NCBI GenBank assembly: GCA_949358305.1
Contig: OX442314.1
Location: 28,321,118-28,381,117, forward strand
Source: Strigamia acuminata
Taxonomy: Eukaryota; Arthropoda; Chilopoda; Geophilomorpha; Linotaeniidae
Direction: 5' to 3'
DNA: 60,000 nucleotides
Shown: positions 1,287-54,100 of the stretch, one piece after another
Numbering within the stretch: the stretch's first letter is position 1
Layout of the letters: each line of letters opens with the position of its first letter
Program-made: the position numbers and the translations under genes
Notes under the pieces: generated by a model
Told to the model about the DNA's origin: nothing
Database searches by the model: none
The model's input: the letters and a program-made list of their open reading frames with translations, nothing else

Positions 1287-1781
1287 CTGTCTTATCTTGA
1301 CATGCTGTAAATTGCTTGAAATGTTGCTTTTTAACCAAAAATCTGTATAATTTTCAATTTTGACTGCTGCAGAAATCATTCCTCTCAGTGGCAAAATACA
1401 AACGTGTAATCTTTCAAGCATGCCTACCACTGAAGAATCTTCTTCCATTTTTTCCCAGTATTCGTACAAAGATCCGGTATCGAGTCCAAAGAACCTCATT
1501 TCTGGGAACTTCATTTCACCTATTGGAACATATTCAATTTCAACTTTGAAATGTCCATCAAAGTAAAATTGGATTCTTTCTATTGTCTGGTAACAACAAA
1601 TGGTGCCACAAACGATCAAAACAACGAACCAAACTGCCCGGACCAAACTTCTCTTTTCTTTGTTGAAAACATTATCAATAAACTTCAAACTATCATTGCC
1701 TGACAGTGAAGTTTGCATTTCTTGCCGTACAAAACGACGAATATGGCTTCGGCGAAGCCTGAGAGCTTTCACCACAGTCAT
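1287..1781 (-). CDS. DEG/ENaC-type channel, copy A, exon 1 (partial gene)
   Basis: Exon 1 of 165 codons from ATG at 1781 to a GT donor at 1286 (phase 0). It encodes the cytosolic N-terminus, TM1 at about residues 46-66 (start SLVRAVWFVVLIV), and the first extracellular strand with a FPEMRFFG segment in place of the family's FPxVTIC. An in-frame TGA sits just upstream of the ATG, which supports this start. The family's cytosolic His-Gly gating pair is replaced by Ser-Gly (SLSGND, residues 25-30). The frame is fully open, unlike copy B. However, the next exon of this copy has been replaced by foreign sequence, and exons 3-10 are outside the window, so function is uncertain. Confidence 0.85.
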
Positions 1782-5230: not shown

Positions 5231-5267
5231 CTGCTCGGGGTGCCCACCTGCCCTTCCAGGAGTTCAA

Positions 5268-12214: not shown

Positions 12215-13957
12215 TCACTCGTTCACTGGATAGCCATAAAAGTCCGGTGGCTTTCTTGTGCGCACAGGACGTGGACTACGAGCAGGTGGAGGAGCAGAAC
12301 TCGAGCCGGCAACAGCAGGCGGTGACGGCGCACGAGCAGGTAACTGAGGAGCAGGAACCTGAGCAGTGGTTTGTGGTGCAACTGTAGGAGCTGGTACGAC
12401 AAGTGGAGCAGGTAAAGTCGGTGGAATGTTCATATTTGCAGGTGGAACTATCGGTTCTGGAATGGGCAACAAAGAAAGAAGCGAACTTCCGCAATTCTTC
12501 CCCTCAATATGAGGCAATTTAGCACCATCCGAGCGCGGGCGCAACTGATCCACGTGACGGCTCCAAACAACGTCCAATGCGACCTCGATGTCGTACGTAG
12601 TTGAGGACGTTTTACGACAAACAATTCCAGGAACCCAACGTTTGGTGCCTCGATAATCACGAGCGAACACCAAGTCGTTTACTTCGAAATGTCGTGGCGT
12701 TTTGGTTTGTCCAGTGTCGGGCAACAACCTCGGGTTTAAAAGATGCAACCTGGAGCGCATTTCCCGATTTGTAAACGCCAAAGCAGCTGAAATGTTAGTT
12801 GTGGCATGCGGAGTGGAGCGATATGAAGCAAGAAAATGCGACACAGCGTCCGACAACGAAAAACTTACAGCCAACAACTTGTCAACCTGATTTTTGAAGG
12901 TTTTCACAAATCCTTCGACGGCACCATTTGTTGCGGGGTGGTACGGCGGCGAAAGAGTGTGACGAATACCGTTGACAGCCAAAAATTTACGAAATTCTTG
13001 TGACGTGAACTGAGGTCCATTGTCGGTGTGGAAATGCAACAGCAATCCATGGGACTCGAACCAAGACTTCACAATATGAGGCAATTTAGCACCATCCGAG
13101 CGCGGGCGCAACTGATCCACGTGACGGCTCCAAACAACGTCCAATGCGACCTCGATGTCGTACGTAGTTGAGGACGTTTTACGACAAACAATTCCAGGAA
13201 CCCAACGTTTGGTACCTCGATAATCACGAGCGAACACCAAGTCGTTTACTTCGAAATGTCGTGGCGTTTTGGTTTGTCCAGTGTCGGGCAACAACCTCGG
13301 GTTTAAAAGATGCAACCTGGAGCGCATTTCCCGATTTGTAAACGCCAAAGCAGCTGAAATGTTAGTTGTGGCATGCGGAGTGGAGCGATATGAAGCAAGA
13401 AAATGCTACACAGCGTCCGACAACGAAAAACTTACAGCCAACAACTTGTCAACCTGATTTTTGAAGGTTTTCACAAATCCTTCGACGGCACCATTTGTTG
13501 CGGGGTGGTACGGCGGCGAAAGAGTGTGACGAATACCGTTGACAGCCAAAAATTTACGAAATTCTTGTGACGTGAACTGAGGTCCATTGTCGGTGTGGAA
13601 ATGCAACAGCAATCCATGGGACTCGAACCAAGACTTCACGACAGCAATGGTGGCAGCAGCTGTGGTGGTAGACATCGCGCGCACTTCACACCATTTGGAT
13701 TTTGCGTCAACGGCCAGTAGAAACATCGAGTTGTGGAAAGGACCAGCAAAATCCAGGTGCACTCGACCCCACACCTGATCAGGGACAGGCCATTTAACGG
13801 TGTTAGTCTTTGGGGGAGCGGGCAGGCTTCGCTGGCAAACATCACAACTTTTGATCGTGCGCTCGATATCTGCAACGATTCCAGGCCACCAAACCGTGGC
13901 GCGAGCCAACGATTTAGTACGGACAATACCGTAGTGACCAGCGTGGAGTTCGATGAG
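12215..13957 (-). pseudogene. Gypsy integrase with internal duplication
   Basis: The segment begins just left of the solo LTR with an H-x3-H type zinc-finger region (ELHAGHYG), then ARATVWWPGI, CDVCQ, the core with DFAGPF and HTDNGPQF, and GAVEGFVKTFKN carrying the catalytic Glu. The second half of the core and the C-terminal domain then occur twice because of a 567-bp in-frame tandem duplication. A TAG at 13406-13408 replaces a Ser codon in the first-read copy. A Pro/Ala-rich tail ends at 12215. Confidence 0.9.
12505..13638. repeat. 567-bp tandem duplication in gypsy integrase
   Basis: 12505-13071 and 13072-13638 are nearly identical; differences seen are TGCCTCG/TACCTCG near 12639/13206 and AAATGCGAC/AAATGCTAC near 12835/13402. 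The period of 567 bp is exactly 189 codons, so the polyprotein frame is kept through the junction. Confidence 0.95.
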
Positions 13958-13962
13958 AACCG

Positions 13963-14538
13963 TGTGACTGGTATGGTCTCGCCAATGTAACTAGGGGACT
14001 AATAACACTGGGTAGGGACGCATACATCACGTAATAATAACGAGACTCCCACAATATTGGTTGGTTGGCCTTTATTGTCGTTGTCTAGGGGTATGGGGAA
14101 TCCTGCTACCCGTTGCAGGGGTGCTCGAAGGCACGCCGCACCGGCAACCGACCCGTCACACACTGGGCATGAGTCCAATGTGTGACGTGGTCGGTTCAAC
14201 TTTACATTCATGCTGTACTTACCTACAGCCCGCAGTGACCACTCATGGAGGCTGTATTGGGTGGAGAACCCAGATACTGAGCATCGCTGTGGTGAATGGG
14301 AAGGAGATGCAGAGTCCTCACAGCCGGGACAACCTTGTCCCCTCGATGACTACAACTGGAACTCTTACCACACGACCGTCCTGGTCGGTGTCCGCACTCT
14401 CTCTACATCTCCTCCCACACCACTCCGCTCCCTCCTTCCCCCGGGCTAGATCACTTTCCCCAATCAGGGGGTGATCTTGGGGCCGCACGGTGGTGTGTGG
14501 CAGTGACGTGGGTCACCCCAGGTGGCCAGACGGTCACA
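13963..14538. mobile_element. Solo LTR inside gypsy pol
   Basis: A 576-bp sequence with ends TGTGAC and GTCACA, flanked by the 4-bp direct repeat ACCG (13959-13962 and 14539-14542). The pol reading frame on each side joins cleanly once it is removed. A diverged partial copy, reversed, is at 33280-33570. It has no coding content. TG..CA ends and a 4-bp duplication fit an LTR left after recombination. Confidence 0.8.
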
Positions 14539-14574
14539 ACCGAGCGCTGAACAGCAGAAGGAATCACCAATCTG

Positions 14575-15405
14575 TCAGATAAAAATAAAAAAATTGTCGT
14601 AAGTAGAAAATGATTCACGGTGCTTGAAATATAAATTCAAGTTCGATGATTTCGATTCCCATCCAGTTCGAACGTGGTGCAATACGGATTGCAGAACCTC
14701 GTCAGCTGCTAAAGCAGCTTTCAATGAAGCGGTGGACATTGGAAAATCTGTAATGGAGGTCGAAAATATCGAATTAATTCCAATGTCCAAATCCTCTTTG
14801 CCATCAACAACTGGTTGCGGATTCCGGGACAAGCCGTCAGCGACAGCATTGTCTGCAGCGGGCACGTGCTCGATAACGTAATCGTAGGCAGAGAGAAAAA
14901 CTGCCCAGCGGTGTAGCCTCGCTGCCACAACCTGGTTGCACCTCTTCTTATCTCCAAAAATTGAGACAAGGGGTTTGTGGTCGGTGCGCAAGAAGAATTT
15001 ACGACCAAACAAATAGTGGTGGAACTTGCGAATGGCATAAATAATGGCCAAGCCCTCACGCTCTATTTGTGCGTAATTCTTCTGCGCAGCCGACAACAAC
15101 GAACTGGCAAAAGCTATCGGTTTGTGGACGCCATCTGAACCTAAATGGGAGAGAAAAGCACCAACTCCAACTGGAGAGGCGTCAACCGTTAGAAACAACT
15201 TTTTGGATTGGTCAAAATGCGCCAGTGCCGATTCAACAGACACTGCGACTTTAACCGCTTTCCAAGCCGACTCATGCTCCTCTTTCCATTCCCATTTGAT
15301 GTCATCTCGAGTCAAGCGGTACAATGGCTCAAGCAGGGTGGAAAGATTCGCGATGAAGCGACCATAATAATTTACAAGGCCCAAAAAAGATTTCAACGAC
15401 AACAC
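14575..15405 (-). pseudogene. Gypsy RT thumb and RNase H
   Basis: It is in the same frame as the upstream Gag-RT segment, separated by two stop codons. It shows the RT connection (FLGLVNYYGRFI), the RNase H start (FLTVDASPVGVGA), the REGLAIIYA segment with its catalytic Glu, and TDHKPL. The frame is lost in an A/T homopolymer near 14580, shortly before the solo LTR insertion that separates it from integrase. Confidence 0.9.
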
Positions 15406-15525
15406 GTCGGATGGGTGAGTCGCCTCACGTAAAGGGGCGAGTTTTGAATCGATGGGGGAAATACCATTCTTCGAAATATTAAAACCAAGGAATTGTACAA
15501 CCTGTTAGAGAAAACGACACTTCCT

Positions 15526-17472
15526 TCAATTCAGGGTCAAACCGGCTTTCAGGAACGTGTGTAGAAACTTGTCCAAGTTTTTTAAATGCACTGCATTTGT
15601 TCCGCCGGTCAGCGCCGAATCATCGATAAAAGGTTGTGTGCTTTCAATCTTAGCAGTCAGGATGTCCATCTCCCTCTGGAAAATCGCTGGAGCGGACGAA
15701 ATGCCGTAGAATAGCCGGTTGACCCTGAAAAGACCAAGGTGGGTATTAATTGTACAACATAATTGGGATTCAGGATCTAATTCGATTTGGTTGTATGCCG
15801 AAGTCATGTCAAGAATAGAATAAGTTTCCCCCCCGGATAACTTAGTGGTGATATCAGCAAACAAAGGAAGCAGGTAGGAGTTTGGGAGAATAGCTTTGTT
15901 GATTGTTCTGTTGTAGCAACCAGCCAACTTAATTGTTCCATCTGACTTCTTGACGTGCATCACTGGAGTTGCCCAACGTGATGACGCGACCGGTGTGATT
16001 ATGCCCAGCGACTGGAGTCTCTCCAATTCGGCCTCGACAAGCGACTTCATGGCGATAGGGACTGGATACGCTTTCAAGAAGATAGGCTGCACGGCAGGAT
16101 CGATGTCGATGTGGGCCTGTGACGTGTTCAAGCAGCCAATTTTGTCCCGGAACACGCGTTCGTATTTCAGCAGTAAGGCGTCCAATTCTGATTGCGTGGC
16201 GGCATCGAGGACAGCGGCTTCGGGAGCGATCATGTCCACTTTATTTATCTTAGCGCCAACAGCTTCTGCAGCTTTCGACAGCAAACCAAACATGCAGAGC
16301 CAACCTCGTCCCAACAGCGGTACAGGACCATCCCGTGCGATGCAGAGCGGCAAAAGGAAATTACGATTCTTGTACGTGACTGGAACCTCGATCACTCCCT
16401 CCATCGGAATTTGATGTCCAGTATACGTCGTCATGCCGCACGGAATGGTCTGCAAGGGGAAACGAGAGAAAAATTTTAAATAAGTGTCCAAATTAATAAT
16501 TGATGCGCTGGCACCCGTATCCAACTCCATGTCCAAGTCCACACCGTCGATACGTACGGTGACAAAGACTGACTGCACTCGAGGCAAATGGACCGAGTTT
16601 ACCACCTGCTTGTGCTGAGTCTGGACACGATAGAATGTCAAATCGTCCAAAACGTCTACTGAATGAGTTGGAGCGTGGTTCTGGACTGGTGCGCGACAGA
16701 TAGGACGAATGTGTCCCGTTTTGCCACAACCGTGGCACTTGGCGTCTTTGAAACGGCACGTCTCGCGAGAATGGTCATTCCTGCCGCACGATGCACACGC
16801 AGAAGCATTTCCCTGCTTTCGGGATGATTGCTGCGGGGCCGTGAACGATGAGGTGCCCTTCGTCGAGCGTTTTCCACCCCACTTCTTGTTGTTATTGTGG
16901 CGTGGTCTGGAATCGTTGACTTTATTCACTTGTGCAGATGAAGCTGGTTTCGCAGCAATTTCGGAAAACTCCTTGTGTGAGATCTCCGCCGACGCCGCAA
17001 ATTCAACCGCCTCATCGAAAGTCAAATTCTCCTTCAAGGTGAGAGCTTGCTGGACCTGCTCATTTTTTAGTCCACACAAGAAACGATTCCGCAATTCATC
17101 CGACTTATTTGCGAACTTGCAATTTTGCGCCAATTCCTGCAAAGCCATTGAATACTCCAGCACCGTCTCGCCCTGTAGTCGATCGCGATGGTGGAACCGT
17201 CGGATTTCAGCCAGAACGAGCGGCTTAGGACGTGCATTTTTCTGCGTTAGGGCGATTAGATCCGCGTATTTGACTTCATCAGGTCTCTTCGGAGCGGCTA
17301 GGGTAACCAACTGCTTGAAAGTCGGCATACCCACGTACGATAGCAGCGTATGGACTTTCTCTTCATCGTCGACAATTTTATTGCACTTAAATATGCTATT
17401 CATCCGCATACAGTACAGTTCCCAGTCGTCTGCTGGGTCGTACTCTTTCGGTGTGCCTTTAAGCGACGACAT
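15526..17472 (-). pseudogene. Gypsy Gag-protease-reverse transcriptase
   Basis: The open frame starts at the ATG at 17472 (MSSLKG); a few in-frame residues precede it. Gag covers about the first 270 codons and ends in two zinc knuckles (CASCGRNDH and CHGCGKTGH). The aspartic protease motif LDTGASASI lies near codon 320. The RT region follows (GRGWLC linker, VKKSDGT, FYGISSAP). The RT catalytic motif reads FIDD where the family usually has Y-x-DD. The frame stops at 15526 within RT and resumes in the same frame after a second stop, so the break is by nonsense codons rather than a frameshift. Confidence 0.9.
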
Positions 17473-17651
17473 ATTGGTCAAAAGGCGATCACGAGCACGA
17501 AAAATCAAAAAACAGGCAACTAGGCCTAACGAGAAGACGCGTGGTCAGCGATGGTCCGAAGTTGGTCAAAAAGTTCGCAAAGTTCTCAAAAAAGCACAAA
17601 TTTCACATTTACCGCATGGATTGTTGTAGATCGAATCATACTCGTCGCCAA

Positions 17652-18290: not shown

Positions 18291-18648
18291 TTAATTCTGA
18301 GTACCATAAACTGATTTACTATCTTTTGCAAGAATTGAAAGACCAATCATTAGTGCAAAAGAATTTCCAACATCGCAACACAATGCAACTGCAGTGTAGG
18401 ATAATATTTGTGTGATCTGTTCAATTATGTTATTCAGTGGACTTATAGCAAGAACATTGAGTAGATATGCTTTAGGATGTTGAAAGTAAACGTAAGTGTC
18501 AAATATTTGTTCTTCACAAGGAGGATGACATCCACAGTCTTTTGTTACGTCAACTTTTAAGGAATTCTTCATGAATAGTCGTAATGAAGAAATTGCTTCT
18601 TCAGCATTTGCACATGAATTACTTGTTACATTATCCAAAAATGGTAGT
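18291..18648 (-). pseudogene. Copy B exon 10 (unit 2 Cys-rich end and TM2)
   Basis: The acceptor AG lies at 18650-18649; the exon completes a Lys codon with exon 9. It encodes LPFLDNV, the paired-cysteine motif CGCHPPC, and the second TM2 with FALMIGLSILA. In copies C and D the frame continues with IPELLQKIV. Here 17 bp are missing between two TTGCA copies, giving an altered tail of about ten residues and an early stop at 18291. Confidence 0.88.
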
Positions 18649-19157: not shown

Positions 19158-20407
19158 TCCTGGATTTTGAGGGCCCAACCGGCAACATGCTCAAATTCAA
19201 TTGTGTGAAAAAGTTACAACTCACTTGCATCGAACAGAATTATAAATATTTTTTTCATAACATTCATCCTGGCATCGTTTGTATTTGTCAGGGTCAAGAC
19301 AAGGTTGTGCTCGTAAGTTTAATCGAACTGTCTAAAATAGAGCCAAAGTTTCAACAGTTTATACAGTATGTAATAATCTGATTATTACTTTAAGCATTTT
19401 AAATGTAATAATGATGAAAGTGTTATCGACAACACTTCTTCTACTTCTGAGAATTGATGGTATTTGAGCATCATTTTGTTGAAAGTATATCTATGAAAAA
19501 AATTACGATTTACCACAATTTCTACATTTATACTCATAAGTAAAAATATGAGCAGTTCCTGTGTGCTATTTACACCCGTGAAACAACCATCCATGTTCAT
19601 TTACCATAACATGACTTTCCTTAAAACTATCATTACCGTAGTTATGTTATGATTACCAAATACTCAAAGTGGTTAAAAAAATTTGAAAACTATTTGAATA
19701 ATGAGTTAGTTGCTACTATTCTTGACAAAAGTGTTAATTGAAACGTGATAGGTGCATTAATTGACGTGTACACGAATTATACATTACTTCATACTCATGC
19801 TGATTACATATTTGATCCTGCAATGGTAGCAGCTTGAAAAATATTATTGAGGCAAGTCCGGTAAATTTCATTGGAGCTGTAACATGCTCATATTAATATT
19901 GTAAGTACAATTTATCTAAAATGACAATTTATGTACCGATGTCAGATTGAAAGCATGTTCCAGTTGGCATAGCTATTTTACTCCACGTTACATTAGTTCT
20001 TACTCCAGCAGCCTGCGGAAACATTTATGATCAACTTTCACATAAATAACACAGGTTTGTAGATTAAACAATTCTATTTATTAAAAAGTGCAACCTGATT
20101 TTGAAACCTTCTCAAAAAATTAATTCTGTTATGTACAGAAAATGTAACCCACTGTAACCCACTAAGAAAATAACATCCCAGAACAACAGAATTTACCTTA
20201 ATTATGTTATTATTATTTTCTCTTCTACATTCTGCCTAACACATCCACTTCATTAGTATAAATTTTATTTGGTTTATAAACCTTTCGTGATTTGACGATA
20301 CGTTATGTGTTTTCATGATGGGTCCACACTTGCGGAACATCGCGATTTTGAGGCAAGTATCCGCAATGTATATGCAGATGTGAACCCATCTTTAGTGGAA
20401 TACTTAC

Positions 20408-21084
20408 CACAGTAGCAGTGCTCATTGCTACTTTATCCATCACAGGCGTTTGGAATCGCCACACATCTTCTATTGACAGTTTTTTATGATTTTTAGTTAT
20501 GTTCATTAAATTAATAAAATGAATCTTGCATTCATTCATGCCTATTTCTTTAGCATATGTGTGCCTGTACTTAGTCATTAATGGTCCATCCATACATGCT
20601 ATTAAATTAGGTAAATACAATGTGTGATTTTCTTGAATAATTACCACATATCTTGTCGGCTCACGTATATATAATGTGATTCTTTCTTTGCTTACATAAA
20701 CTGCCAATATCGCAGAAGTAACTATAAGAATTAAATTCAATGTAGATTGCAGTAGAAGTTTTTTTTGTGGCCGCTGCATCACACCTCGTGAATCACCTTT
20801 CTTTTTGTCGATGACCAAATGCATTTGTTTAGTAGTTTTCTTTTTTATGCTCCCTTTAAGTTGAGCAGGTCTGATGTATTTAGACAAAATGAGAAGAAAC
20901 ATTTGTGCAATTTCAATTAAAGACAGAAGAGAAAATCCCAAAGAGAATCCCAAATTGCCCCCAAAATCAATCAATAAGTTTGGAATGGTGTAAATGTAGG
21001 TTTCTGTCATTCTGACAAACAATTCTTCCAATACTTTAAAATTGAGACTTATTAGATCTTTGCCATTTAGTTCATCTTGAAAAT
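20408..21084 (-). CDS. Copy B exon 5: fusion exon, TM2 of unit 1 and TM1 of unit 2
   Basis: The exon has 677 nt, acceptor AG at 21086-21085 and donor GTAAGT at 20407. It opens with the pre-TM2 region (DLISLNFKVLEELF), then TM2 of unit 1 (FGGNLGFSLGFSLLSLIEI, matching the family's GGxLGxxLGxSxLSLxE). About 40 basic, cytosolic-type residues follow, then a new TM1 (STLNLILIVTSAILAVYV), a YVVIIQ strand and LPNLIAC, which equals the start of a second channel unit. There is no stop between the two halves. The same 677-nt exon is open in copy C. No lesion is seen in this exon although the gene is broken elsewhere. Confidence 0.9.
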
Positions 21085-23834
21085 CTAACTTAAAACATAA
21101 TAATTTTGAGAATTATGCATAAACATAGAAGATATTATTGTTTAACTTGTATCAGAATAGGCTATAAACAAATAAACATTCTGTTCACAAGGTCTCAAGC
21201 AACCACATTCATACGATGGCAGTGTATTCTTTTCATGGAAAAGTGCTTCCTCATACATTTCAGCCACAATTGATTTGTTTGACTCTAAACTGCAATCCAT
21301 CAAATTTTTGTTGGACATAAAAGGCAACCTGGTAAGCCAAAAATCTATGAGTTTATCAATATTTAGATGGTGCATGCATTTAGACCTGCATCGTTGATCA
21401 ATTTTTTTTCTCACACAATCTTCGTAGCATTGGGTTTCCTTTTTCTTATCCGGTTCACAATAGGGAAATCTCGAAGCTAAAAATTTATACTACCAAGAAA
21501 CATATGCAGCATTACACTTTTGGTGATCCATCACAATAACAAGATTAAAAAGCTGATATCTGATATATTCCAACTTATAGACTTTTGTGATGCGCTACAA
21601 ATTTTACAATAAGGGGAATCAGAAAAGAAATTTAAATACTTAACTGGTTAAGTACTAAAGTGTGGATATGCAACTGAGCATGCCCAGAACATTTTTTAAA
21701 GTTTGTTTTTACACACTAACTTAAAACACAGGCTGCTAAACACTTAAGCAGTTAAGTGTTTAGCAGCAAATACAAATACAACAGCTTACACTTCGAATAA
21801 AAAATTGAGTTTGAGATTCAAATCCTGACGTCACCACGAAAGTGAATTGGTAAGACATAACGCTAATTATCGTTATCGCCTAATATTTAATTGTGTAAAA
21901 ATAAAAGTATAAGTTACAAACTCCAATAAAATAGTAAATGATGAGATTCTTACCGAAATCTGTGGATTGACACAGTTGGTTCTATTCGTTTTATAGAGTA
22001 TGTGAAATTTCATATTGGGTGCTAATTTTCGATCTATAGATTCAGCCAAAAATATTAAAACTTCAAAATTATTTAATTTTGTTTTTATTTCTAACCAGAA
22101 GTAAAGACCAAAGATCGTCCAATTACATCATTTCGATAGCTTAGTGAAATTTCTGTCTTATCCTTTCTAGAAATTCCTTCCTTAATTGTTGTTTCATGCA
22201 ATACAGTTTTGCCCTGAAAAGTTATACGATTACAGATGTAATTCAGCAGATTACTTGTTGTGACCCCAAATGTCCTTTTTTATTGGAATATGTTGAGAAT
22301 AAGAAATTAATGATTTAATTTTCTGATGTGTTAAATGAATTGTTTTACAGTCCCTTTAATTATTTGGAAATGCTGGAAGTGACTAATTTGAGGAATCTAT
22401 TTATTTTAGTGTTTCTAACAAGTTATTGGATCTTTTCATTGTATAATAGTGTTTAAAATAATTTATATTTGTTCTGCACCGGTTGTGCTTTTGGGCAATT
22501 TGCACAAAAGCCGTTGCCACTGCCCTGGTAATTTGAGCCCTGGATTGGGAGGTTGCTAGGGCAAAACTCCAATTTGCACCGTTTCTAGGGCCAAAGCGTG
22601 CCGCGCAGCCCCCCCTTGTTAGCCCTTCTTAGGAATTAAACCTAGGTTTTTGTGTCGCTAAAATGACATGTTTGCTAAAATGGTGTGTCGCTAAAGTAAA
22701 ATCGCTAAAATGAAATCGCTAAAATGAAGTACATCCGTGCCGAGATACGATCTGCACTTGGCTTTCACGTTGTGGACAAGAACAGGGGAAAGAATAATTT
22801 TTATTCCCCATACTATAAAAAAAATTATACCACCATGTCCATGAATTTACTGTCATTTACTGTCATCTCCATGAATAAAATTGAACAATTCCGGTCCTAC
22901 TAACATTTGCTTTGAATTGTTATTTTTCATAATAATTTTTACAAGGGTGAATACTTGTGATGACAACTGTAGGATTCTGGGTTTCAGCATCAGTGACCAA
23001 TTCCCTGGCATCCCATCCTTGCCCAGAATATGGAATAATTCAGACACGAGCTCATGATTTAGTGTCTACAGTAACTTCACTGCTTGTTTTACACAAGAGA
23101 GGTCTTGTTGCTACTATCTAACAGAGGAGCAACTCTTTATTGTTTCTTTCCCTGGCGAACCGTTGCTAAAGAAAAAATATGAAATTTGCATGAAGACATC
23201 AGTGACTGTATTGGTAGCAATATAACCCTAACTTTTATCATTACAGACTAACAATTACATGAACCATTTCATGTGGTGACAATACATAATATCAACATAA
23301 TATCCCACCCAGTATTAAAAAAATAATAGGATTAAATACCTGTCTTATCTTGACGTGCAGTAAATTGCTTGAAATGTTGCTTTTTAACCAAAGATCTGTA
23401 TAATTCTCAATTTTCACTGCTGCAGAAATCATTCCTCGCAGTGGCAAAATACAAACATGTAATCTTTCAAATATGCCTTGCACTGTAGAATCTTCTGGCA
23501 TTTTTTCCCAGTATTCGGACAAAGATCCGGTATCGAGACCAAAGAACCTTATTTCTGGGAACGTCATTTCACCTATTGGAACATATTCAATTTCAACTTT
23601 GAAATGTCCATCAAAGTAGAATTAGATTCTTTCCGTTGTTTGGTAACAACAAATGGTGCCACAAACGATCAAAACAACGAACCAAACTGCCCGGACTAAA
23701 CTTCTTTTTTTTTTGTTGAAAACATTATCAATAAACTTCAAACTATCATTGCCGGACAGGGAAGTTTGCATTTCTTGCCGTACAAAACGACGAATATGGC
23801 TTCGACGAAGCCTAAGAACTTTCACCACAGTCAT

Positions 23835-25218: not shown

Positions 25219-28158
25219 TTATTCAATCCGAACAAGTCCCATCATTAAAAGGAACTTCTCGTGTTTAGGTGCAAATAAACCTTTAGTTAACACGTCCGCT
25301 GGCATCTCACCTGTTTGTAAATATTCGACTCGAATGTGTCCATTTTCTTGGACTTCACGGATGAAATGGTAGCGGATGTCGATGTGTTTGGTTCGAGAGT
25401 GGTTTACCGGATTTGCTGCTAATCGTTTTGCTCCTTGATTGTCATTATAAATAATTACAACTGGTGGTACTGATTTTTTGCTGATTTCTTCAATGAATCT
25501 TTTTAGGCAAATAGCTTCTCGTGAGCAGTCCGATATTGACATATACTCGGCCTCAGTGCTCGATAAGGCAATTGTTTTTTGTTTTTGAGCAGTCCAGCTA
25601 ACTGCGCAGCCCGCCAATTTGAACACGAATCCAGTGTGTGAGTGGCGACTATTTAAATCACCTGCCCAGTCGGCATCGGCGTATGCGACGAGATCTTCTC
25701 CGGTTTTCTTGAACATTAATCCTAAGTTGATCGTCTCGTGGAGGTATCGTAGAACTCGTTTTCCTGCGACAATGTGCTGTGAATCAAAGTCATTGTTATA
25801 CTGACTCAATGCGCTCACGGCATATGCGAGGTCGGGACGAGTCATTACGGCCAAATACATTAGGGACCCGACCAAACTTTGATAAGGAAATTTTCGTGTT
25901 TCCGGTTTTCGATCTTCGAGTTTAACACCTGATCGCCTCAATTTAGCGTTTGCGTCCAGTGGGGTTGCGATCGGTGTGCACTGGTCCATATTAAAACGTT
26001 TTAACACGTCGAACGCGTATTTTCTTTGGCACATCGTGATCGTATTTTTTGCGAGATTCTGAGCAAATTCGATTCCGAGGCAGTAACCAATGGCACCCAA
26101 ATCTTTCATTTCGAATTCGCCTTTTAACGATTTTTTCAGGTTTTTGAACGATTTTTCATTGTTGAATGCGATAATTAAATCGTCGACGTAGATTCCGATG
26201 ATCGTGTATTCGGTTCTGGTTTGTTTGATGTATACGCATGGGTCGAAATTCGATGGTTTAAAACCAAACTTACGCAATTTTTGGTCGAGCTTGATGTACC
26301 ATTGTCTCCCGGACTGTTTTAAACCGTAAATCGATTTCAAGAGTCGCAACACTTTGTCGTTCTTCGTTCCGGTGACTTCATCAAATGATTCGGGTTTTTC
26401 CATATAAATTTCCTCCTCGAGTTCGCCGTTAAGGTATGCGGTGACTGCATCCAACTGTTCTACAGTCAGATTTTTCTCGACGGCGATTGCCATAATCATG
26501 CGAATAGAATTGGCACGAGCAACTGGTGCGAACGTTTCATTGTAGTCGACTCCAAAGCGTTGCGTGAAGCCCTTCGCTACAAGGCGCGCCTTCCGTCTTT
26601 CGATGGTTCCGTCCGCTCTGTATTTAGTTCGTAGGACCCATCGGCTGCCAATCGTTTTTTGTTTCTTGGGCCGTTCCACTTCTTCCCACGCACCGTTTTT
26701 AATCAATGCGTCGTATTCCGATTTTAATGCGGCTCTCCATTCGTTCGCGTGGTCGCTCTCGAGAGCCTCTCTAGCGGTCACTGGATCATCGCACTCAACG
26801 AAGTTCGCAAAGATTTCGTCCTCGTCTTCACTCTGATCCGGAATGGTAGGAACAGTTTGGTAAACTTTCCTGGGTCGCCCTCTCTTTCCGGTCTTGACGA
26901 GTAATGGACGTCCGGGCCCCCTTTTACGCTGGGGTGAGTCGGGGACGACATCTGCGGCTTCCGGTATGATTTCGGGGATTTCGTTCTCGGACTCGGTTTC
27001 ACTTGAAACTTCGGTTTTAGTTGTTTCGATGACTTGGTTCGTTTGAATTTCCAAAAAATCGTATTCGTTTTCGTCTTCATCTTCGTCTCGGAACTCGGGT
27101 TCGATTCTGGCGTCTTCGTTTACGAACTTAACGTCCCGTCCTTTGAAAAACCTGCATTTTTTAACGTCGTAGAGTCGGTATGCTTTTGAATCTTCGTCGT
27201 ATCCGGTGAAGATGCACTCGAATGATTTCGCGTCAAACTTTCCAAGATTTGAGCCTTTATCGAGGCAAAAGGCCTTCGATCCGAACTTTTGAAAGTAACT
27301 GATATCCGGTTTTTTTCCTTTCCAAATCGAATATGGAATTTCACCATCTAGTGACTTCGAGGGGCAGCGATTTCGAATATGATTTGCGGTGAATATCGAC
27401 TCGGCCCAAAATGATTTCGGTAAATGTGAATTCAAAATCTGGCATCGTGCCATTTCGACCAGCGTCCGGTTACGTCTCTCGGCGACGCCATTTTGTTCTG
27501 GCGTGTATTCGACCGTTAATTGACGTTTAATACCATTGTCGGACAGGAAATCGTCGAAATTTCTATTTACGTATTCCCTTCCGTTATCGCTGCGAAAAGC
27601 TTTAATTCGTTGTCCAGTTTGATTTTCTGCATACCGTTTGAACTCTTTAAAAGCGTCCAAAACTTTGGATTTTTTCGAGAGAAAAAATATGGCGCCCCAT
27701 TTCGATTTATCGTCGATGAATGATACGAAATATCTGGAACCGCCGGGAGATTGAACACGCATCGGGTCGCAAACATCGGAGTGGACCAAATCTAGTAAGT
27801 TTTCACTTTTCGATTTGCTCTTTTTCGGGAACGATTTTTGGGTTAGCTTCCCTTTAATACAAGTTTCACATGGTTCGAGCTTGTCAGATTTCTTGATCGT
27901 TATCCCGCTTACGAGCTGATTGTTGACGAGTTTTTTCAAGTCGGATTCGTTTAAATGGCCAAGTTTTTCGTGCCATTGTTGAATTTTGTTTGAATATGGG
28001 AAGTTGTTCCACTGTCCAACACCCATTCGTTGGAACTTTCTCGTGCAAGGTTCGATTTTTCGGTGTTTTTTCCCGGCCTTATGTCTGCAAGGAAAGATCG
28101 TAAATATGATGAGTCTTCGAATTCCGCGGCCTTCTGTTGTTTTTTCAGTAAAAAACAT
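25219..28158 (-). CDS. Copia 1 integrase-RT-RNase H polyprotein
   Basis: Recognisable homology starts about 60 codons in with the integrase zinc finger (WHEKLGHLN and CETCIKGK). Then come the integrase core (HSDVCDPM, RSDNGREY, NGVAERRNRT), an acidic linker with a GRP-type basic motif, RT (GSRWVLRTKYR, QLDAVTAYLNGELEEE, YVDDLI) and RNase H (YADADWAGD, ALSSTEAEYMS). All catalytic acidic residues that I can check are present. The first 60 or so codons overlap gag in another frame and are probably not natural sequence but read-through of the deletion junction. It lies in the -1 frame relative to gag. Confidence 0.9.
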   Translation of the reverse strand: MFFTEKTTEGRGIRRLIIFTIFPCRHKAGKKHRKIEPCTRKFQRMGVGQWNNFPYSNKIQQWHEKLGHLNESDLKKLVNNQLVSGITIKKSDKLEPCETCIKGKLTQKSFPKKSKSKSENLLDLVHSDVCDPMRVQSPGGSRYFVSFIDDKSKWGAIFFLSKKSKVLDAFKEFKRYAENQTGQRIKAFRSDNGREYVNRNFDDFLSDNGIKRQLTVEYTPEQNGVAERRNRTLVEMARCQILNSHLPKSFWAESIFTANHIRNRCPSKSLDGEIPYSIWKGKKPDISYFQKFGSKAFCLDKGSNLGKFDAKSFECIFTGYDEDSKAYRLYDVKKCRFFKGRDVKFVNEDARIEPEFRDEDEDENEYDFLEIQTNQVIETTKTEVSSETESENEIPEIIPEAADVVPDSPQRKRGPGRPLLVKTGKRGRPRKVYQTVPTIPDQSEDEDEIFANFVECDDPVTAREALESDHANEWRAALKSEYDALIKNGAWEEVERPKKQKTIGSRWVLRTKYRADGTIERRKARLVAKGFTQRFGVDYNETFAPVARANSIRMIMAIAVEKNLTVEQLDAVTAYLNGELEEEIYMEKPESFDEVTGTKNDKVLRLLKSIYGLKQSGRQWYIKLDQKLRKFGFKPSNFDPCVYIKQTRTEYTIIGIYVDDLIIAFNNEKSFKNLKKSLKGEFEMKDLGAIGYCLGIEFAQNLAKNTITMCQRKYAFDVLKRFNMDQCTPIATPLDANAKLRRSGVKLEDRKPETRKFPYQSLVGSLMYLAVMTRPDLAYAVSALSQYNNDFDSQHIVAGKRVLRYLHETINLGLMFKKTGEDLVAYADADWAGDLNSRHSHTGFVFKLAGCAVSWTAQKQKTIALSSTEAEYMSISDCSREAICLKRFIEEISKKSVPPVVIIYNDNQGAKRLAANPVNHSRTKHIDIRYHFIREVQENGHIRVEYLQTGEMPADVLTKGLFAPKHEKFLLMMGLVRIE

Positions 28159-28889
28159 TCCGAAATGTTGTGTCCGAGCTTTTTACAGTGGTCGCACTGT
28201 TTTCCGTTGGATTTTCGGACGGTATTCACACGATCGTTTTTAGATTTCGGTTTTCTGTTTTTGGCAAACATTGCGTTATCGTCCGAATCTGTTCGATCCT
28301 CGACATTTTTTCGGCTTTGCCAATCGTCCGTCACCTTTTTAAGGACTTTTTCGAATGTTGGCATGGTCTTTTTGGTCCGAATGGCAGCTCGTATTGCGGT
28401 GAAGCTTTCGGGTAGGCTTAGCAAGAATATCGCAGTGGTCAGTTTATCGGGCGTAAGTTTTGTCGAGTTTTCTTCGAGACTTCGAAGGGTTTCGGAAAAG
28501 AATATCGAGTGATTTTTAAAATCGTCGTCTGATTTTAGTTTTTTCATGATCATTTCGGTCAGCATCGATGTGATTTTTATGTCGCCCGTATCGTCGTAGA
28601 CTTCCTGGAGTTTTTTGTACATATGAAATGCACTCGGTTGGCCGTCCACGTGTCGCATTTGATCGAGTGAGATCGCGGTTAGTAGATCGCTTTCGGCTTT
28701 GCCGTTATTTTCGTTCCATTCTTCTAGTTCGGTTTCTGATTTTTTATCGCCGGCGATTACGGCTGGGCGAGGATGTTCGGTTTCAATCCATTTCCAGGTC
28801 TTTCGTGCATAACATGCGGCTTTTAGCTGCAGTTTCCACCCACGATAATTGGTGTCGTTTAGTTTCTCCACTCTGGTATGATCGGTCAT
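27951..28889 (-). CDS. Copia 1 Gag and start of protease
   Basis: 312 codons from ATG at 28889. It has the copia-type Gag start (LNDTNYRGWK), a CCHC knuckle (CDHCKKLGHNISEC) and the protease active-site motif WVLDSGTTSHI near the end. The frame then closes after about 15 more residues. In complete copia elements roughly a hundred residues separate this motif from the integrase zinc finger; here the distance is about 25 residues, so most of the protease is missing. Confidence 0.9.
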   Translation of the reverse strand: MTDHTRVEKLNDTNYRGWKLQLKAACYARKTWKWIETEHPRPAVIAGDKKSETELEEWNENNGKAESDLLTAISLDQMRHVDGQPSAFHMYKKLQEVYDDTGDIKITSMLTEMIMKKLKSDDDFKNHSIFFSETLRSLEENSTKLTPDKLTTAIFLLSLPESFTAIRAAIRTKKTMPTFEKVLKKVTDDWQSRKNVEDRTDSDDNAMFAKNRKPKSKNDRVNTVRKSNGKQCDHCKKLGHNISECFLLKKQQKAAEFEDSSYLRSFLADIRPGKNTEKSNLARESSNEWVLDSGTTSHIQTKFNNGTKNLAI

Positions 28890-28973
28890 TTTCGATTTAT
28901 TTCGAATATTTCGGACGGATTTAACGAGATTTAGTTTACGTGGAACGAAGCGATTACGATTGCCAATTAGTTT

Positions 28974-29003
28974 GCGCAGTGGAAGCGTGCTGGGCCCATA
29001 ACC
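28974..29003 (-). other. Primer-binding site: initiator tRNA-Met 5' half
   Basis: The 30 bases next to the 5' LTR read, on the plus strand, as the anticodon-arm half of animal initiator tRNA-Met (GGAAGCGTGCTGGGCCCATA then ACC). Drosophila copia is known to use the 5'-half fragment of this tRNA as primer. The match to the tRNA as I know it reaches back to GCGCAGT at 28974, longer than priming needs. Confidence 0.85.
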
Positions 29004-29092
29004 TGTTGTTATGTTGCTAAGAAAACGAATGTGATATGCACGGAACGACTTGGAGAGAACTGATTTTATTCAAATAAACATGTGGGTTATAT

Positions 29093-32610: not shown

Positions 32611-32645
32611 CTGCTCGGGGTGCACACCTGCCCTTCCAGGAATTC

Positions 32646-32892
32646 AATTTTAATTTGATAAAATTTAATTTAACATACAATTTTAATTTGATAAAATTTT
32701 ATGCAATATTCAATTAGATAGAATTTTATGCAATATTCAATTAGATAAAATTTTATGCAATATTCAATTAGATAAAATTTTATGCAATATTCAATTAGAT
32801 AAAATTTTATGCAATATTCAATTAGATAAAATTTTATGCAATATTCAATTAGATAAAATTTTATGCAATATTCAATTAGATAAAATTTTATG
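32646..32892. repeat. AT-rich minisatellite, 27-bp period (copy B)
   Basis: About seven units of CAATTAGATAAAATTTTATG plus CAATATT. It sits at the same place as the 33-bp arrays of copies A and C, so the array has been re-amplified from a different unit. Confidence 0.92.
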
Positions 32893-33080
32893 CCAGTGGC
32901 TACGGCGACAATGCCTTTGAAAACTGGCACCAGGGGAATCGGAGTTACATTAGGCGCCTAGTTGAAGGGTCTGACTAGGATCGCAGTAGGGCAGGGGCAA
33001 AAGGTATGGAGGGAACTGACCCAGTTTACAGTAAAGCGGGGGCAGAGGGGAAATAGGGCACATTAGATGCCAAAAATTAG

Positions 33081-34347: not shown

Positions 34348-34795
34348 TCAGATTTGATGCTCTGAATTAGTATTTGAGTTTTTTAACTCGAGTATATATA
34401 ATGGGAGATGTCCGTATATAATTATTCCGAGTACCATAAACTGATTTACTATCTTTTGCAATAATTCTGGAATTGCAAGAATTGAAAGGCCAAGCATTAG
34501 TGCAAAAGAATTTCCAATATCGCAACACAATGCAACTGCAGTGTAGGATAATATTTGTGTAATCTGTTCAATTATGCTATTCATTGGACTTAAACCAAGA
34601 ACCTTGAGTGGAAATGCTTCAGGATGTTGAAAGTAAACATAAGTGTTAAATATTTGTTCTTCACAAGGATGGTAACATCCACAGTCTTTCGTTATGTCAA
34701 CTTTTAAGGAATTCTTCATGAATAGTTGTAATGAAGAAATTGCTTTTTCAGCATTTGCACAGATATTATTTGTTACATTATCCAAAAATGGTAGC
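34348..34795 (-). CDS. Copy C exon 10 (unit 2 Cys-rich end, TM2, C-tail)
   Basis: Open throughout. It encodes DCGCYHPCEEQIF, then TM2 with GNSFALMLGLSILAIPELLQ, where GLS matches the G-x-S selectivity filter and the Glu of IPELL matches the conserved LxE after the filter. A short cytosolic tail of about 40 residues ends at 34348. It shows what copy B lost through its 17-bp deletion. Confidence 0.88.
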
Positions 34796-34961
34796 CTAAA
34801 ATTATAAAGACTTATTACAACCCAGTGCAGTAACGCATGGACCTCTTCCGAGTCCTCTTGTACCAGCCCATACAGAATCTTTAGTAATGTTTGTAAATTT
34901 AGATTCTAAAATGACCAAGAACTTGAAAAAAAATATAATTTGAGATAGACACACGACAGTA

Positions 34962-43112: not shown

Positions 43113-43789
43113 CACAGTAGCAGTGTCCATTGCTCCTTTGTTCATTGATGGCGTTTGGAATCGCCACACTTCTTCTATTGACGGTTTTTTCTTTCGGATG
43201 GTCATGTTCATTAAATTGATAAAATGAATCTTGCATTCATTCTTGCCAATTTCTTTAGCATATGTCCTCCTATAGTGAGTCATTAATGATCCATCCTTAC
43301 ACGCAATTATATTGGGCAAATACAATGTGTGATTTTCTTGAATAATTATCACATATCTTGTTGGCTCAATCATATACAATGCGATTCTTTCTTTGCTCAC
43401 ATAAACAGCCAATATTGCAGAAGTAAATATAAGAATTAAATTCAATGTAGATTGCAGTAGAAGCTTTTTTTGTGGCTGCTGCATCAAATCTTGTGAAACA
43501 TCTTTGTTTTTGTCAATGACCAAATGCATTTGTTTAGTAGTTTTCTTTTTTATGCTCGCTTTAAGTTGAGCAGGTCTGATGTATTTAGATAAAATGAGAA
43601 GAAACATTTGAGCAATTTCAATTAAAGACAGAAGAGAAAATCCCAAAGAGAATCCCAAATTGCCCCCAAAATCGATCAATAAGTTGGGAATGGTGTAAAT
43701 GTAGGTTTCTGTCATTTTGACAAACAATTCTTCAAATACTTTAAGATTGAGACTTATTAGATCTTTGCCATTTGATTCATCTTGAAAAT
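43113..43789 (-). CDS. Copy C exon 5: fusion exon
   Basis: 677 nt, acceptor AG at 43791-43790, donor GTAAGT at 43112, both as in copy B. It reads TM2 of unit 1 (GFSLGFSLLSLIEI), a basic linker, then TM1 of unit 2 (STLNLILIFTSAILAVYV) and LPNIIAC. Differences from copy B are substitutions with no frame change, including in the linker. Confidence 0.9.
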
Positions 43790-45199
43790 CTAACTTAAAA
43801 CATAATAATTTTTAGAATTATGCAAAAACATAGAAGATATTATAGTTTAACTTGTATCAGAATAGACTATTAACAAATAAATATTCCGTTCGCAAGGTCT
43901 CAAGCAACCACATTCAAATGATGGCAGTGTAGTCATTTCATGGAAAAATGCTTCCTCATACATTTCAGCCACAATTGATTTGTTTGATTCTACACTGCAA
44001 TCCATCAAATTTTTGTTAGACATAAAAGGCAACCTGGTAAGTCAAAAATCTATGAGTTTATCAATATTTAGATGTAACATGCAATTAGACCTGCATCGTT
44101 GAGGAATTTTTTTCCTCACACAATCTTCGTAGCATTGGGTTTCCTTTTTCTTATCCGGTTCACAATAGGGATGTCTCGAAGCTAAAAATTGATACTACCA
44201 AAAAACAATAATGCAGCATTACTATTTTTGGTGATCCGTCACAATAAACAAGATTGAAAAGCAGATATCTGATATACTCAAACTTATACACTTTTGTAAT
44301 GCACTTCAAATTTAACAAAATTAATTGGGCTTACACTTCGAATAAAAAATTGAATATCAGATTCAATTCCTGACGCCACCGAGAAAGTATATTGGTAAGT
44401 CATGACGCCAACTACCGTTGTTATCTAATACTCAATTGTGGAAAAATAAGTTACAAACTCCAATAAAATAGTAAAAGGTGAGATTCTTACCGTAATCTGT
44501 GGCGTGACACAGTTGGTGCTATTCGTTTTAAGGAGCATGTGTGCTTTCACATTTACTGCAAATTTTCGATCTATAGATTTAGCCAATAATATTAAAAGTT
44601 CAAAATTATTTTATTTTGTTTTTATTTCTAACCAGAAGTAAAGACTAAAGATCGTCCAGTTACATCATTTCGATAGCTTAGTGAAATTTCTGTGTTATCC
44701 TTTCTAGAAATTCCTTCTTTAATTGTTGTTTCATGCAATACAGTTTTGCCCTGAAAAGTCATACGATTATCGATGTAATCCAGCAGATTACTGTATGCAT
44801 ATAGAATGCACACTACGCATACATTTGACGCCAATAATCAAGTAGAGGGCACCTGTGCCGAGTTACAATCTGCATATGATTTTTATGTTACATGTCCCTT
44901 TATTAAAATGCTTTCGCCAAATGTATGGACATAAACAGACCAATGGCCCAGAGATAAGCCCTATCCTACCATACAGTGATCCGACCCAGTAAGGCAGAGG
45001 AGAGGGTTGAGTAGAGTTGTGGGAGTCCAGTTGTGGACAAGAGCAGGGGTGACAATAATTTTTATTCCCCATACTATAAAAAAATTAAGGCACCATTTCC
45101 ATGAATTTACAGTCATTTACTGTCATGTCCATGAATCAAATTGAACAATTCCGGTCCTACTAACACTGCATTGTTTTTTAATAATTCTTACAACCGTCT

Positions 45200-46532: not shown

Positions 46533-47027
46533 CTGTCTTATCTTAACGTGCTGTAAATTGCTTGAAATGTTGCTTTTTAACCAAAAATCTGTATAATTTT
46601 CAATTTTCACTGCTGCAGAAATCATGCTTCTCACTGGCAAAAGACATTCACGGTATCTTTTGAGTTTGCTTTGCACTGAAGAATCTTCTGGCATTTTTTC
46701 CCAGTATTCGGACAAAGATCCGGTATCGAGACCAAAGAACCTCAATTCTGGGAACGTCATTTCACCTATTGGAACATATTCAATTTCAACTTTGAAATGT
46801 CCATCAAAATAGAATTGGATTCTTTCCATTGTTTGGTAACAACAAATGGTGCCACAAACGATCAAAACAACGAACCAAACTGCCCGGACTAAACTACTCT
46901 TTTGTTTGTTGAAAACATTATCAATAAACTTCATACTATCGTTGCCTGACAGTGAAGTTTGCATTTCTTGCCGTACAAAATGACGAATATGACTTCGACG
47001 AAGCCTAAGAGCTTTCACCGCAGTCAT
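46533..47027 (-). CDS. Copy C exon 1
   Basis: 165 open codons, same borders as copies A and B. TM1 reads SLVRAVWFVVLIVCG. The extracellular start is FPELRFFG. Ser-Gly again stands where most family members have the gating His-Gly. Six or so differences from copy A cluster in the region after FFGLDTGS (residues 110-130). Confidence 0.88.
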
Positions 47028-49850: not shown

Positions 49851-49884
49851 CTTCTCGGGGTGCCCACCAGCCCTTCCAGGAGTT

Positions 49885-51104: not shown

Positions 51105-54100
51105 TCAGATTAGATAGCCTGAATTAATATCTTTTTTTTTAACTTTTTTAACTCGAGAATATAATAAGAGGTGTTCTTTTATATTTATTCTGAGTACCAT
51201 AAACTGATTTACTATCTTTTGCAATAATTCTGGAATTGCAAGAATTGAAAGGCCAAGCATTAGTGCAAAAGAATTTCCAATATCGCAACACAATGCAACT
51301 GCAGTGTAGGATAATATTTGAGTAATCTGTTCAATTATATTATTCAGTGGACTTAAACCAAGAACCTTGAATGGAAATGCTTCAGGATGTTGAAAGTAAA
51401 CATAAGTGTTAAATATTTGTTCTTCACAAGGAGGGTGACATCCACAGTCTTTCGTTATGTCAACTTTTAAGGAATTCTTCATGAATAGTTGTAATGAAGA
51501 AATTGCTTCTTCAGCATTTGCACAGATATTATTTGTTACATTATCCAAAAATGGTAACCTACAAATATAAAGACATATTGCAACTCATTGCAGTAACTCA
51601 TTGTGTCGCCCCTTTCGACTTTCGCCGTGGACTTCCTCCTAGTCCTCTTGTACCGGCCCATACAGAATCTTTAGTAATGTTGCTCACATGCTCACATGCT
51701 CACATTCAATTCTGTGAAGAATTACGACTCACTTGCATCGAACAAAATTATAAATCAATTTTTTGTAACAATCATCCTGGCATAGTTTGTATTTGACGTG
51801 GTCAAGGCAAGATTGTGCTCGTAAGTTTAATCGAACGGTCTAAAATAGAGCAAATGTTTCAAGAATTTATACGTAATAAACTGATGTACGAGTATTACTT
51901 TAATCATCTTAAATGTAATAACAACTAAGGTGTTATCTACAACACTTCTTCTACTTCTGAGAATTGATGGTATTTCAGCATCATTTTGTCGAAAGTATAT
52001 CTACAAAAGAAATTACGATTACCAAACAATTTCTACATTTATACAAATAACTAAACGAAACCACAGTACAAGTAGTTCACCTGCACAATTTACACCTCTG
52101 AACCCATCCATATAAGCAGTTTACCATTAACCATAACTTTCCCTGATACATACATTACGTTACGTTTTCCACATATTCTGAGTGGTGAAAAATATTATAA
52201 AGAACAGTCACCATAGCCAATCTGTACTACAGGACTATTACACAATTGATCAAGACATACAAGATGGCATAAAAGGTGGGCCACTGATGTGTTTAGTCTT
52301 GTATGTGGGTCTAAAGACCATTTATTTGATCGATGTCGAATGTTTCTGATGTCAATTTAGCGTTTTATTTCACACGATGTAAACTTTTACTGCTTTAGAA
52401 TCAAATGCGGTATTTGTATTTGCTTTACGATTGTTCCGTACGAAATTCCGTACGATTTATGTATCTACTAATGAGATTTGTTCTATTTTTCAATGTTAAT
52501 GTTATTATCTGGCACTAGAGTGCCACACTTGTTTTCCTTGCAAAATCCAAGATGGCGCAACACACGGGCGTGTGTTGCCCTGACTGTTTATCCACATCAA
52601 AGTAATGTATTTTCGTTTAATTAAATTGTTTTTAGTAGTTTTAACAATTGTACTTACTTTAAAGCACCTTCTGTGCTCTTTTGTGCGCGAATAAGCGGCC
52701 TTAAGCCGCGCGCTTGTTACGAAACGTATTGCGACGTATCGCAAACGTTCGCGTCGCAGACCGACGCCATTACGGCAATTTGCCGCACGCTTCTCGGCGA
52801 TATCTCGCCGATATCTGCGCCCCTCTGTTCTACATTTGGTAGCAGAGGGTGGTTGCTGCCTAATTCCACGTTTATTTCGTTAATTTTCGACGTATTTGTC
52901 GCGAAATTCGCGACTTGTGCGCCGAAATTCGTTTATTTTCAGGTACCGACGATCCTCGCCTCGTCAGTTTCGTTTTACGAACGTCTACGACGTACCGCCG
53001 ACGTTCCACACAGCCAGGGCTGTTTATCCTACGATCATTTGACTAATTTTGTCCAAATTCTCGCGGGTTTCGCGGTTTTTGAGGCAAATTTATTTATTTT
53101 TGCAGATTTTTCGACAAAACTGGATTTTCGACACTGCTTAGCACGAAGCGGCAGTTCCAACGAGAACCGAACACTAGATTGTTCGCCGCTTAGTTCCCCG
53201 GTGAACGGCGGTTATCACCGATCTGTGCAAGTGGACGAAGAGCCTCGATTTATTCGAGAAGATTTCGGATTTCACATCCGAAATAGCGCTTTCTCCAGCT
53301 TTTCGAGAAAGCTGCGCCGTGCCTTCATTTGCACGAGGATCGCATCCGCGATTGATTCGTCTATTTCTCCTTCTTTCGACTTTACCTTTGTTAGAATTAA
53401 GGGTATTTTGGTGTGGGACCTTATTAGATTCGACACAGCTCTTCGGGCATTCCGTCCACCGCTGTGTTTGTATTTTGTGACAAGGCTGAGCCCTGCGCCA
53501 CCTAGCATTCCCGTGACCCCAGGAGGTCGTAAAGGACGCTAGGGGGACACTTGTCACAAGCTATCAGCTGATTGTAGCATCGGCTCCCCCTTTGAAGGTT
53601 TCCGCCTCGAAAGTGTGTGTGAAGTGCTTCAGTTCAGTGCTCCGAATCGAAGTCAGCATTTGTGCAGTGCTCCAGTATTTAACGTACCATTCCTTGAGTC
53701 AGTGTGTTCGTCGCGTTGTGTCGAGTTTTCCACTCCACAATGAAGAAAGCGTCGGAATTATCGGGCGGAACGGTTCCCGTACTCACCGTTGGGAACTATG
53801 AATCCTGGCAGCGCTCGATGCGCATGCTTCTAAAATCCGAAGGTTTATGGAGACACGTGACCGAGGAAAAGGAGGCCGAGCACCTTGCAACTTTAAATGA
53901 AAAGGAAAAGGACCGTTATGCTGTGAAAAAGGACAAAGCACTTGGTCACATATATATTCACGTCAGTGAAGCGAAACGATCGGCCCTCGACGCTTGCAAT
54001 ACACCTAAGCAAGCATGGGACAAGTTGGCCACCATTTATGCACCGAGTTCCAGGGCCAGACGAGCGGCCATGAGATGGGAATTTTTGAGCCTCCAACTCA

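Follow-up and report, generated by a model that had tools for sequence, protein, structure and literature searches.

The window, that is, the whole stretch of 60,000 nucleotides analysed here (C1:28321118-28381117), belongs to a Strigamia acuminata genome of 237,517,015 bases, and it contains parts of four DEG/ENaC gene copies (A to D), all on the minus strand and set amid LTR retrotransposons. In copy B, positions 20303-21112 of the minus strand form a single open frame of 269 amino acids which passes from a TM2 block (DFGGNLGFSLGFSLLSLIE) through a basic linker into a further TM1 with an LPNLIAC end. The frame includes exon 5 of the copy (20408..21084, minus strand), an exon of 677 nt bordered by AG (21084) and GT (20408). 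This exon, called the double exon in what follows, was assigned by its open frame, motifs, splice sites and a Pfam ASC match on its TM2 part (E = 1.1e-9, 38.2 bits against a cut-off of 23.6). It comprises the end of the unit-1 ectodomain, TM2 with the LGFS selectivity motif, a basic linker of about 45 residues, the TM1 of unit 2 and the start of the unit-2 ectodomain. The claim of a previous sequence-only reading of this DNA, namely that TM2, a basic linker and a second TM1 follow one another in this exon without a stop, is thus confirmed by the 269-aa frame.

The other exons of copy B lie on the same strand. Exon 1 (23340..23834) holds the start codon, the N-terminus and the unit-1 TM1; its DNA is 93-94% identical to that of copies C and A, and its frame is interrupted at 23622-23624 by a TAA, the corresponding codon of copies A and C being CAA. 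The unit-1 ectodomain continues in exon 2 (22096..22213), which is conserved in the family loci L041, L042 and L044, and in exon 3 (21954..22060), with an intron phase as in the complete gene on C11 described below. Exon 4 (21147..21489) covers the unit-1 Cys-rich region up to SDT and joins exon 5 in phase 1. The intron between exons 2 and 3 (22061-22095) measures 35 nt, and a relative on C6 (L087) has about 60 nt at the equivalent place. On the unit-2 side, exon 6 (19937..20012) encodes ectodomain, and exon 7 (19745..19817, 3' end approximate) is thrown out of frame by one additional base that copy C and L043 lack. Exon 8 (19389..19490) was matched by eye to exon 8 of the C11 gene and is conserved in copies C and D. 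Exon 9 (19225..19331, borders placed by eye) is the unit-2 Cys exon CLDPDKYKRCQDECYEKNIYNSVRCK, and exon 10 (18291..18648) carries the end of the unit-2 ectodomain and its TM2 (CDVGNSFALMIGLSILA), directly after which 17 nt are deleted relative to copies C and D. These lesions, namely the nonsense codon of exon 1 and the frameshifts of exons 7 and 10, make copy B a pseudogene.

Of copy A, exon 1 (1287..1781, minus strand) lies in the window and is open, the remainder of the copy lying to the left of the window; the reading of this copy covers exons 1-5, all of them open, with exons 2-5 outside the window (L007). Copy C, also on the minus strand, has an open exon 1 (46533..47027), exons 2 and 3 (44633-44750 and 44491-44597), an exon 4 (43852..44194) with an in-frame TGA at 44042-44044, and a double exon (43113..43789) which is 90% identical in DNA to that of copy B and open over its 677 nt, as the previous reading had stated. 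Its unit-2 exons 6, 7, 9 and 10 were placed, with approximate ends, at 37342-37417, 37127-37212, 35283-35391 and 34473-34807, with exon 8 sitting between exons 7 and 9. Of copy D, again on the minus strand, the window contains exons 8-10 (51236..52010, approximate) and, on the other side of an inserted LTR element, exon 7 (59862-59901), ahead of which the AG has seemingly been lost. The double exon of copy D lies to the right of the window and is open over the 670 of 677 bases compared.

The element between exons 7 and 8 of copy D is a copia-type LTR retrotransposon (52304-59560). Its two LTR stretches of 533 bases do not differ from each other, which suggests a recent insertion, and it contains an open frame of 1701 codons (53698-58803). 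A second copia-type element, with gag and pol frames on the minus strand, lies between copies B and C (25219-29069). Further minus-strand frames occur at 12215-17544, with a reverse-transcriptase match at 15526-17544 and weak aspartic-protease matches, and an identical 300-nt repeat is found at 12505 and 13072. Minisatellites with 27- and 33-base spacing are present at 5263-5707, 32628-32947 and 49883-50168 and apparently travelled along with the duplicated gene block. A DNA search against plasmids gave no match, as expected.

Double exons are found throughout the genome. The union of two protein-query searches gave at least 206 double-exon loci, 183 of them without a stop in the match, the total being a lower bound because both searches scored the best candidates only. 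With the 269-aa copy B exon as query, 142 of the best 143 matches scored span both membrane blocks, and 127 of these 142 are stop-free. With a distant second double exon as query, the best 135 rows included 130 spanning matches (112 stop-free) and added 64 new loci (56 stop-free). A stop in the match may fall outside the exon, and since the double exons of copies C and D were scored with a stop and are nevertheless open, the 183 stop-free loci are an undercount of the open double exons. The loci are distributed over C1, C3, C4, C5, C6, C8, C9 and C11, and many of the rows are merely 23-35% identical to the query. All 40 regions fetched gave an open frame matching the copy B exon, and 37 of them passed a filter on the TM2 motif and length. 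Among the three failures, L060 and L075 plainly show the same architecture and L077 has a shortened TM2; these three are absent from the trees, the dN/dS comparisons and the linker set (46 of 49 kept by the motif filter). Chance, or a lone pseudogene freak, is ruled out by these genome-wide counts, in which 142 of 143 matches span both blocks. On C8, between 11.12 and 11.21 Mb, three near-identical copies (11121899, 11151858 and 11212824; L061 covers 11121600-11122840) have a double exon that continues in one 390-codon open frame and seemingly includes exon 6, and the region has one more match, a partial one, at 11168955.

Many double exons are followed, at a distance of about 2 kb, by a unit-2 end exon. 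For the best 150 end exons, a known double exon is located 0.5-8 kb upstream in 112 cases versus downstream in 27, counted irrespective of the strand of the double exon. A further count gave 34 of the 150 end exons with no known double exon inside 12 kb; four of these were opened, of which two had an unlisted double exon and two had none. Of 143 double exons, 76 are followed downstream on their own strand by an end exon at 0.6-8 kb, with no end exon counted twice, and 19 have a same-strand end exon upstream; on the opposite strand no end exon occurs within 8 kb of any of them. Genes with three or more units were also considered; the closest listed double exons are 5.3 kb apart, and at L086 and L087 a last exon with a stop precedes the start of the next copy, which gives two units per gene at both loci. 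At L087 (C6), the last exon is followed by the first exon of the next gene; exons 6 and 7 could not be joined in phase there, and this copy is not counted as intact.

A complete two-unit gene was modelled on C11 (5040073-5044056, minus strand). It consists of ten exons joined in phase, with GT-AG at all introns, and encodes 840 residues followed by a terminal stop; the exon borders were placed by hand from homology and phase, and other AG sites are possible. Because the intron phases are 0,1,0,2 in unit 1 and 0,1,0,0,2 in unit 2, the two halves have a common intron plan; hence the most plausible view of the double exon is that a final exon, that of unit 1, and an initial exon, that of unit 2, have merged in it. 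Pfam detected ASC alone on the C11 protein (117.3 bits, four stretches) and no potassium-channel P-loop domains, and the halves taken alone scored 71.7 and 56.2 bits, so that the domain search on a spliced product proposed with the previous reading finds ASC in each of them. Many Cys lie between the membrane segments. In a hydropathy plot with a 15-residue window, the four strongest peaks coincide with the four expected membrane segments; with a 19-residue window and a cut of 1.6, TM1 and TM2 of unit 1 pass and both unit-2 segments fall below. Whereas a DEG/ENaC polypeptide has one unit, the C11 model has two in one in-phase frame. A recent internal duplication was rejected, as the C11 halves are 21% identical and the unit-2 exons form a clade of their own.

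The sequence-only reading had threaded ten exons in phase through copy B, giving about 850 residues in the order TM1-ectodomain-TM2-linker-TM1-ectodomain-TM2. The ten-exon plan is borne out by the C11 model with its 840 residues, and the one-frame order is well supported for this model and for the family of at least 206 exons. In copy B itself the ten exons can be placed, but the reading through them in one frame has to be given up, with the TAA in exon 1, the extra base in exon 7 and the 17-nt loss in exon 10.

In an alignment of 35 double exons, which are 20-78% identical to that of copy B, invariant residues flank the linker on both sides (D39, G42, N43, G49 and S51 before it; P142, P158 and C163 after it). 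The G-x-S motif that breaks TM2 is invariant in unit 1 (G49 and S51 in all 35 rows) and is retained in 19 of 22 unit-2 end exons, the other three having GFT (L103), GMC (L101) and ATS (L102). Most unit-2 TM2s read GN where unit 1 reads GGN. AlphaFold2, run on the copy B exon with 35 alignment rows (mean pLDDT 68, pTM 0.38), places TM2a and TM2b on either side of a break at G-x-S, then a helix in the linker and a long TM1' that leads into a strand, and the order of elements in this predicted model is that expected of a DEG/ENaC. Across 186 close pairs, which are non-independent and include copies B and C, the median dN/dS was 0.25 for TM2, 0.47 for the linker and 0.36 for TM1' and the start of the ectodomain; in some pairs the linker exceeded 1, with a maximum of 1.44.

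A tree was computed from 90 TM2 exons. All 24 that belong to unit 2 group together in a single clade (support 99/95, recovered in 100% of 200 bootstrap trees). Outside this clade fall 42 exons of unit 1 and 24 from genes presumed to be single-unit, and the unit-1 exons appear as one group in just 14% of the bootstrap trees. L107 was left out of the tree by the motif filter, and L017, L022, L024 and L036 gave no single-unit row; L018 and L033, considered as single-unit genes, are parts of tandem genes. The position of the unit-2 clade, apart from unit 1 and from the single-unit genes, indicates that the tandem is old and asymmetric. An equivalent join, looked for in related species as the previous reading had suggested, is present in a UniRef model of Strigamia maritima (T1ITA9, 346 aa; 58% identical over 92% of the query), and because this model carries the join too, the tandem architecture probably predates the split of S. 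acuminata and S. maritima. Searches of the protein collection yielded no full-length two-unit protein and no relative beyond T1ITA9; since they brought up no ordinary DEG/ENaCs either, the collection may be poor in animal proteins, and this is weak evidence.

Considering the double exon, its recurrence and conservation, the asymmetry of the two units and the complete in-phase gene model, we conclude with considerable confidence that Strigamia possesses a large natural family of tandem DEG/ENaC genes, which would place two unlike subunits in one chain. Each intact gene would be transcribed into a single mRNA and translated into one chain that crosses the membrane four times and has intracellular ends, and unit 1 and unit 2 would be two different subunits kept adjacent. 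Both ends of a DEG/ENaC unit are cytosolic, and the succession TM2-linker-TM1 thus requires no change of topology. The simplest reading of the sequences would be one fusion of two unlike subunits followed by massive duplication. We propose that two single-unit genes of like exon plan were joined, whereby the last exon of one (LPF-TM2-stop) and the first exon of the other (Met-TM1) would have become one exon. At this fusion the stop would have been lost and the second N-terminus would have turned into a basic linker of 35-56 residues. The fused gene would then have given rise to some 200 copies, some of which later decayed, the flagged copy B among them.

The linker bears on what becomes of such a chain. 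Among 46 linkers the length ranges from 35 to 56 residues (median 45.5), with a median of 11 K+R and 2 D+E. A strongly basic linker that is also the least constrained part of the exon is what might be expected if the one chain were a precursor that is cut there into two free subunits, a sub-case of the tandem reading. On the other hand, the linker is expected on the cytosolic side, out of reach of furin-type processing, and we regard this outcome as unlikely. Two products per locus could also be made without cleavage, if alternative splicing or polyadenylation terminated unit 1 behind its TM2, with unit 2 arising from an internal promoter or from a start in the linker. A Met is indeed present in 32 of the 46 linkers; however, it is absent from the other 14, and in every linker column at most 30% of the rows have a Met, so that unit 2 is without a conserved start of its own. 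Besides, the join lies inside a single exon, and the linker is kept in frame with a median dN/dS below 1, all of which makes separate products quite improbable.

The broken copies B and C, and the 23 of 206 double exons with a stop in the match (some of these stops lying outside the exon), would also suit a dead family, in which the double exons are mostly pseudogene relics that are open by chance. Against this, 183 of the 206 are stop-free, the median dN/dS is well below 1, even exons of 20-25% identity retain the invariant Gly, Ser, Pro and Cys, and the C11 gene model runs uninterrupted over 840 aa, and we consider a dead family very improbable. An assembly or annotation artefact that fuses neighbouring genes, which the repeat-rich tandem array of the window might bring to mind, deserves hardly any credence, as the join lies within one exon at 206 or more places on many chromosomes and in the S. 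maritima model as well.

DEG/ENaCs are regarded as trimers whose subunits are made separately, and the order and ratio of these subunits are studied with artificial concatemers. It had been suggested that a fused pair would impose a fixed stoichiometry or need an unusual assembly, which is a reasonable view of what the gene structure may entail. With at least 35 residues, the linker would be able to span the distance to an adjacent subunit, be it of the same trimer or of a different one. Given that one chain is made, the arrangement we favour, with as much belief as doubt, is a pair that sits in one heterotrimeric pore, where the third unit would come from a second tandem chain or from a single-unit protein. 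Three chains that form two linked trimers are conceivable, though doubtful; on the same premise, cleavage into separate subunits seems rather unlikely, and a tetramer of two chains decidedly so. That the family consists of covalent DEG/ENaC heterodimers which depart from the plain trimer, either as linked unit-1 and unit-2 pores or as a two-chain channel of four units, is put forward as a tentative and rather doubtful hypothesis.

A natural tandem of two channel units per chain exists in the K2P potassium channels, which have an unrelated fold. There, two chains complete a four-fold pore, whereas two DEG/ENaC units do not divide a three-fold pore. Among DEG/ENaCs themselves, whether ASIC1a at the cell surface is a trimer or a tetramer is presented as disputed in one report (PMC4529235). 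Laboratory concatemers such as those described in PMC4529235 and PMC10329638 likewise place subunits head to tail in one chain; they are engineered, whereas the join in Strigamia is genomic and repeated through a gene family.

New relative to the family as a whole are the two units predicted per polypeptide, the membership in DEG/ENaC resting on domains. Trimeric, cation-conducting and amiloride-sensitive channels are the rule in this family, of which the C11 protein is by its domains a putative member. No natural tandem or concatenated DEG/ENaC was found among the open-licence papers listed in the literature searches, and the earlier remark that a natural linked DEG/ENaC is not well described agrees with this search. 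In the main text of the S. maritima genome paper (PMC4244043), the terms ENaC, pickpocket, degenerin and sodium channel are absent; the same text describes geophilomorphs as an order without eyes.

That such a tandem has been kept open at about two hundred loci suggests that the forced pairing of unlike subunits is tolerated or favoured by selection. It also speaks for a large DEG/ENaC expansion in a geophilomorph. A DEG/ENaC expansion has reportedly taken place in spider mites as well, in work cited by PMC7738191. The natural tandems are ready-made constructs for studying how two linked units fit a three-fold pore. If an assembly other than the trimer were true, the sensory receptor repertoire of Strigamia would be built on an architecture otherwise familiar from engineered constructs.

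By sequence, the best PDB match of the C11 protein is BRTNaC1 (E 8.4e-14, over a stretch in unit 1), which is also the best match of unit 2 alone (E 2.5e-10). PDPNaC1 (PDB 9jf7) follows after variants of BRTNaC1, with E 9.4e-13 for the C11 protein and 1.8e-4 for unit 2. The PDB matches of the copy B exon are weak, with FaNaC1 (E 0.0011) ahead of BRTNaC1 (E 0.0045). BRTNaC1, a centipede heat receptor, is described as trimeric (PMC12804983), and the authors of the PDPNaC1 report cite it as a thermal receptor in the centipede from which PDPNaC1 comes (PMC12714832). PDPNaC1 itself is presented there as a proton-gated homotrimer of centipede antennal sensory neurons, with 421 aa and nine exons (PMC12714832). 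The likeness of the C11 model to BRTNaC1 is one of sequence, and the difference lies in the number of units per chain, one in BRTNaC1 (431 residues solved) and two in the C11 model. PDPNaC1 is likewise a centipede DEG/ENaC with a sequence match, but it has one unit and forms a homotrimer. A stop after TM2 of the BRTNaC1 and PDPNaC1 type is not found in unit 1, which reads on into the linker in 183 of 206 double exons. By analogy with these two channels, and with its array-like expansion, the family is probably sensory.

The presumed single-unit DEG/ENaC genes of this genome were read from 24 last exons, their 5' parts lying outside the reading. These exons resemble those of the tandem genes in having C.C...C followed by TM2, and differ from them in the stop after TM2 and in branching apart from unit 2. 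None lies closer than 28 kb to a double exon, for the 51 of 206 double-exon positions compared. Many presumed single-unit last exons occur on C1, C3, C4, C6, C9 and C11, several of them clustered, and some of their TM2s have GGTLGLYLG in place of GGNLG.
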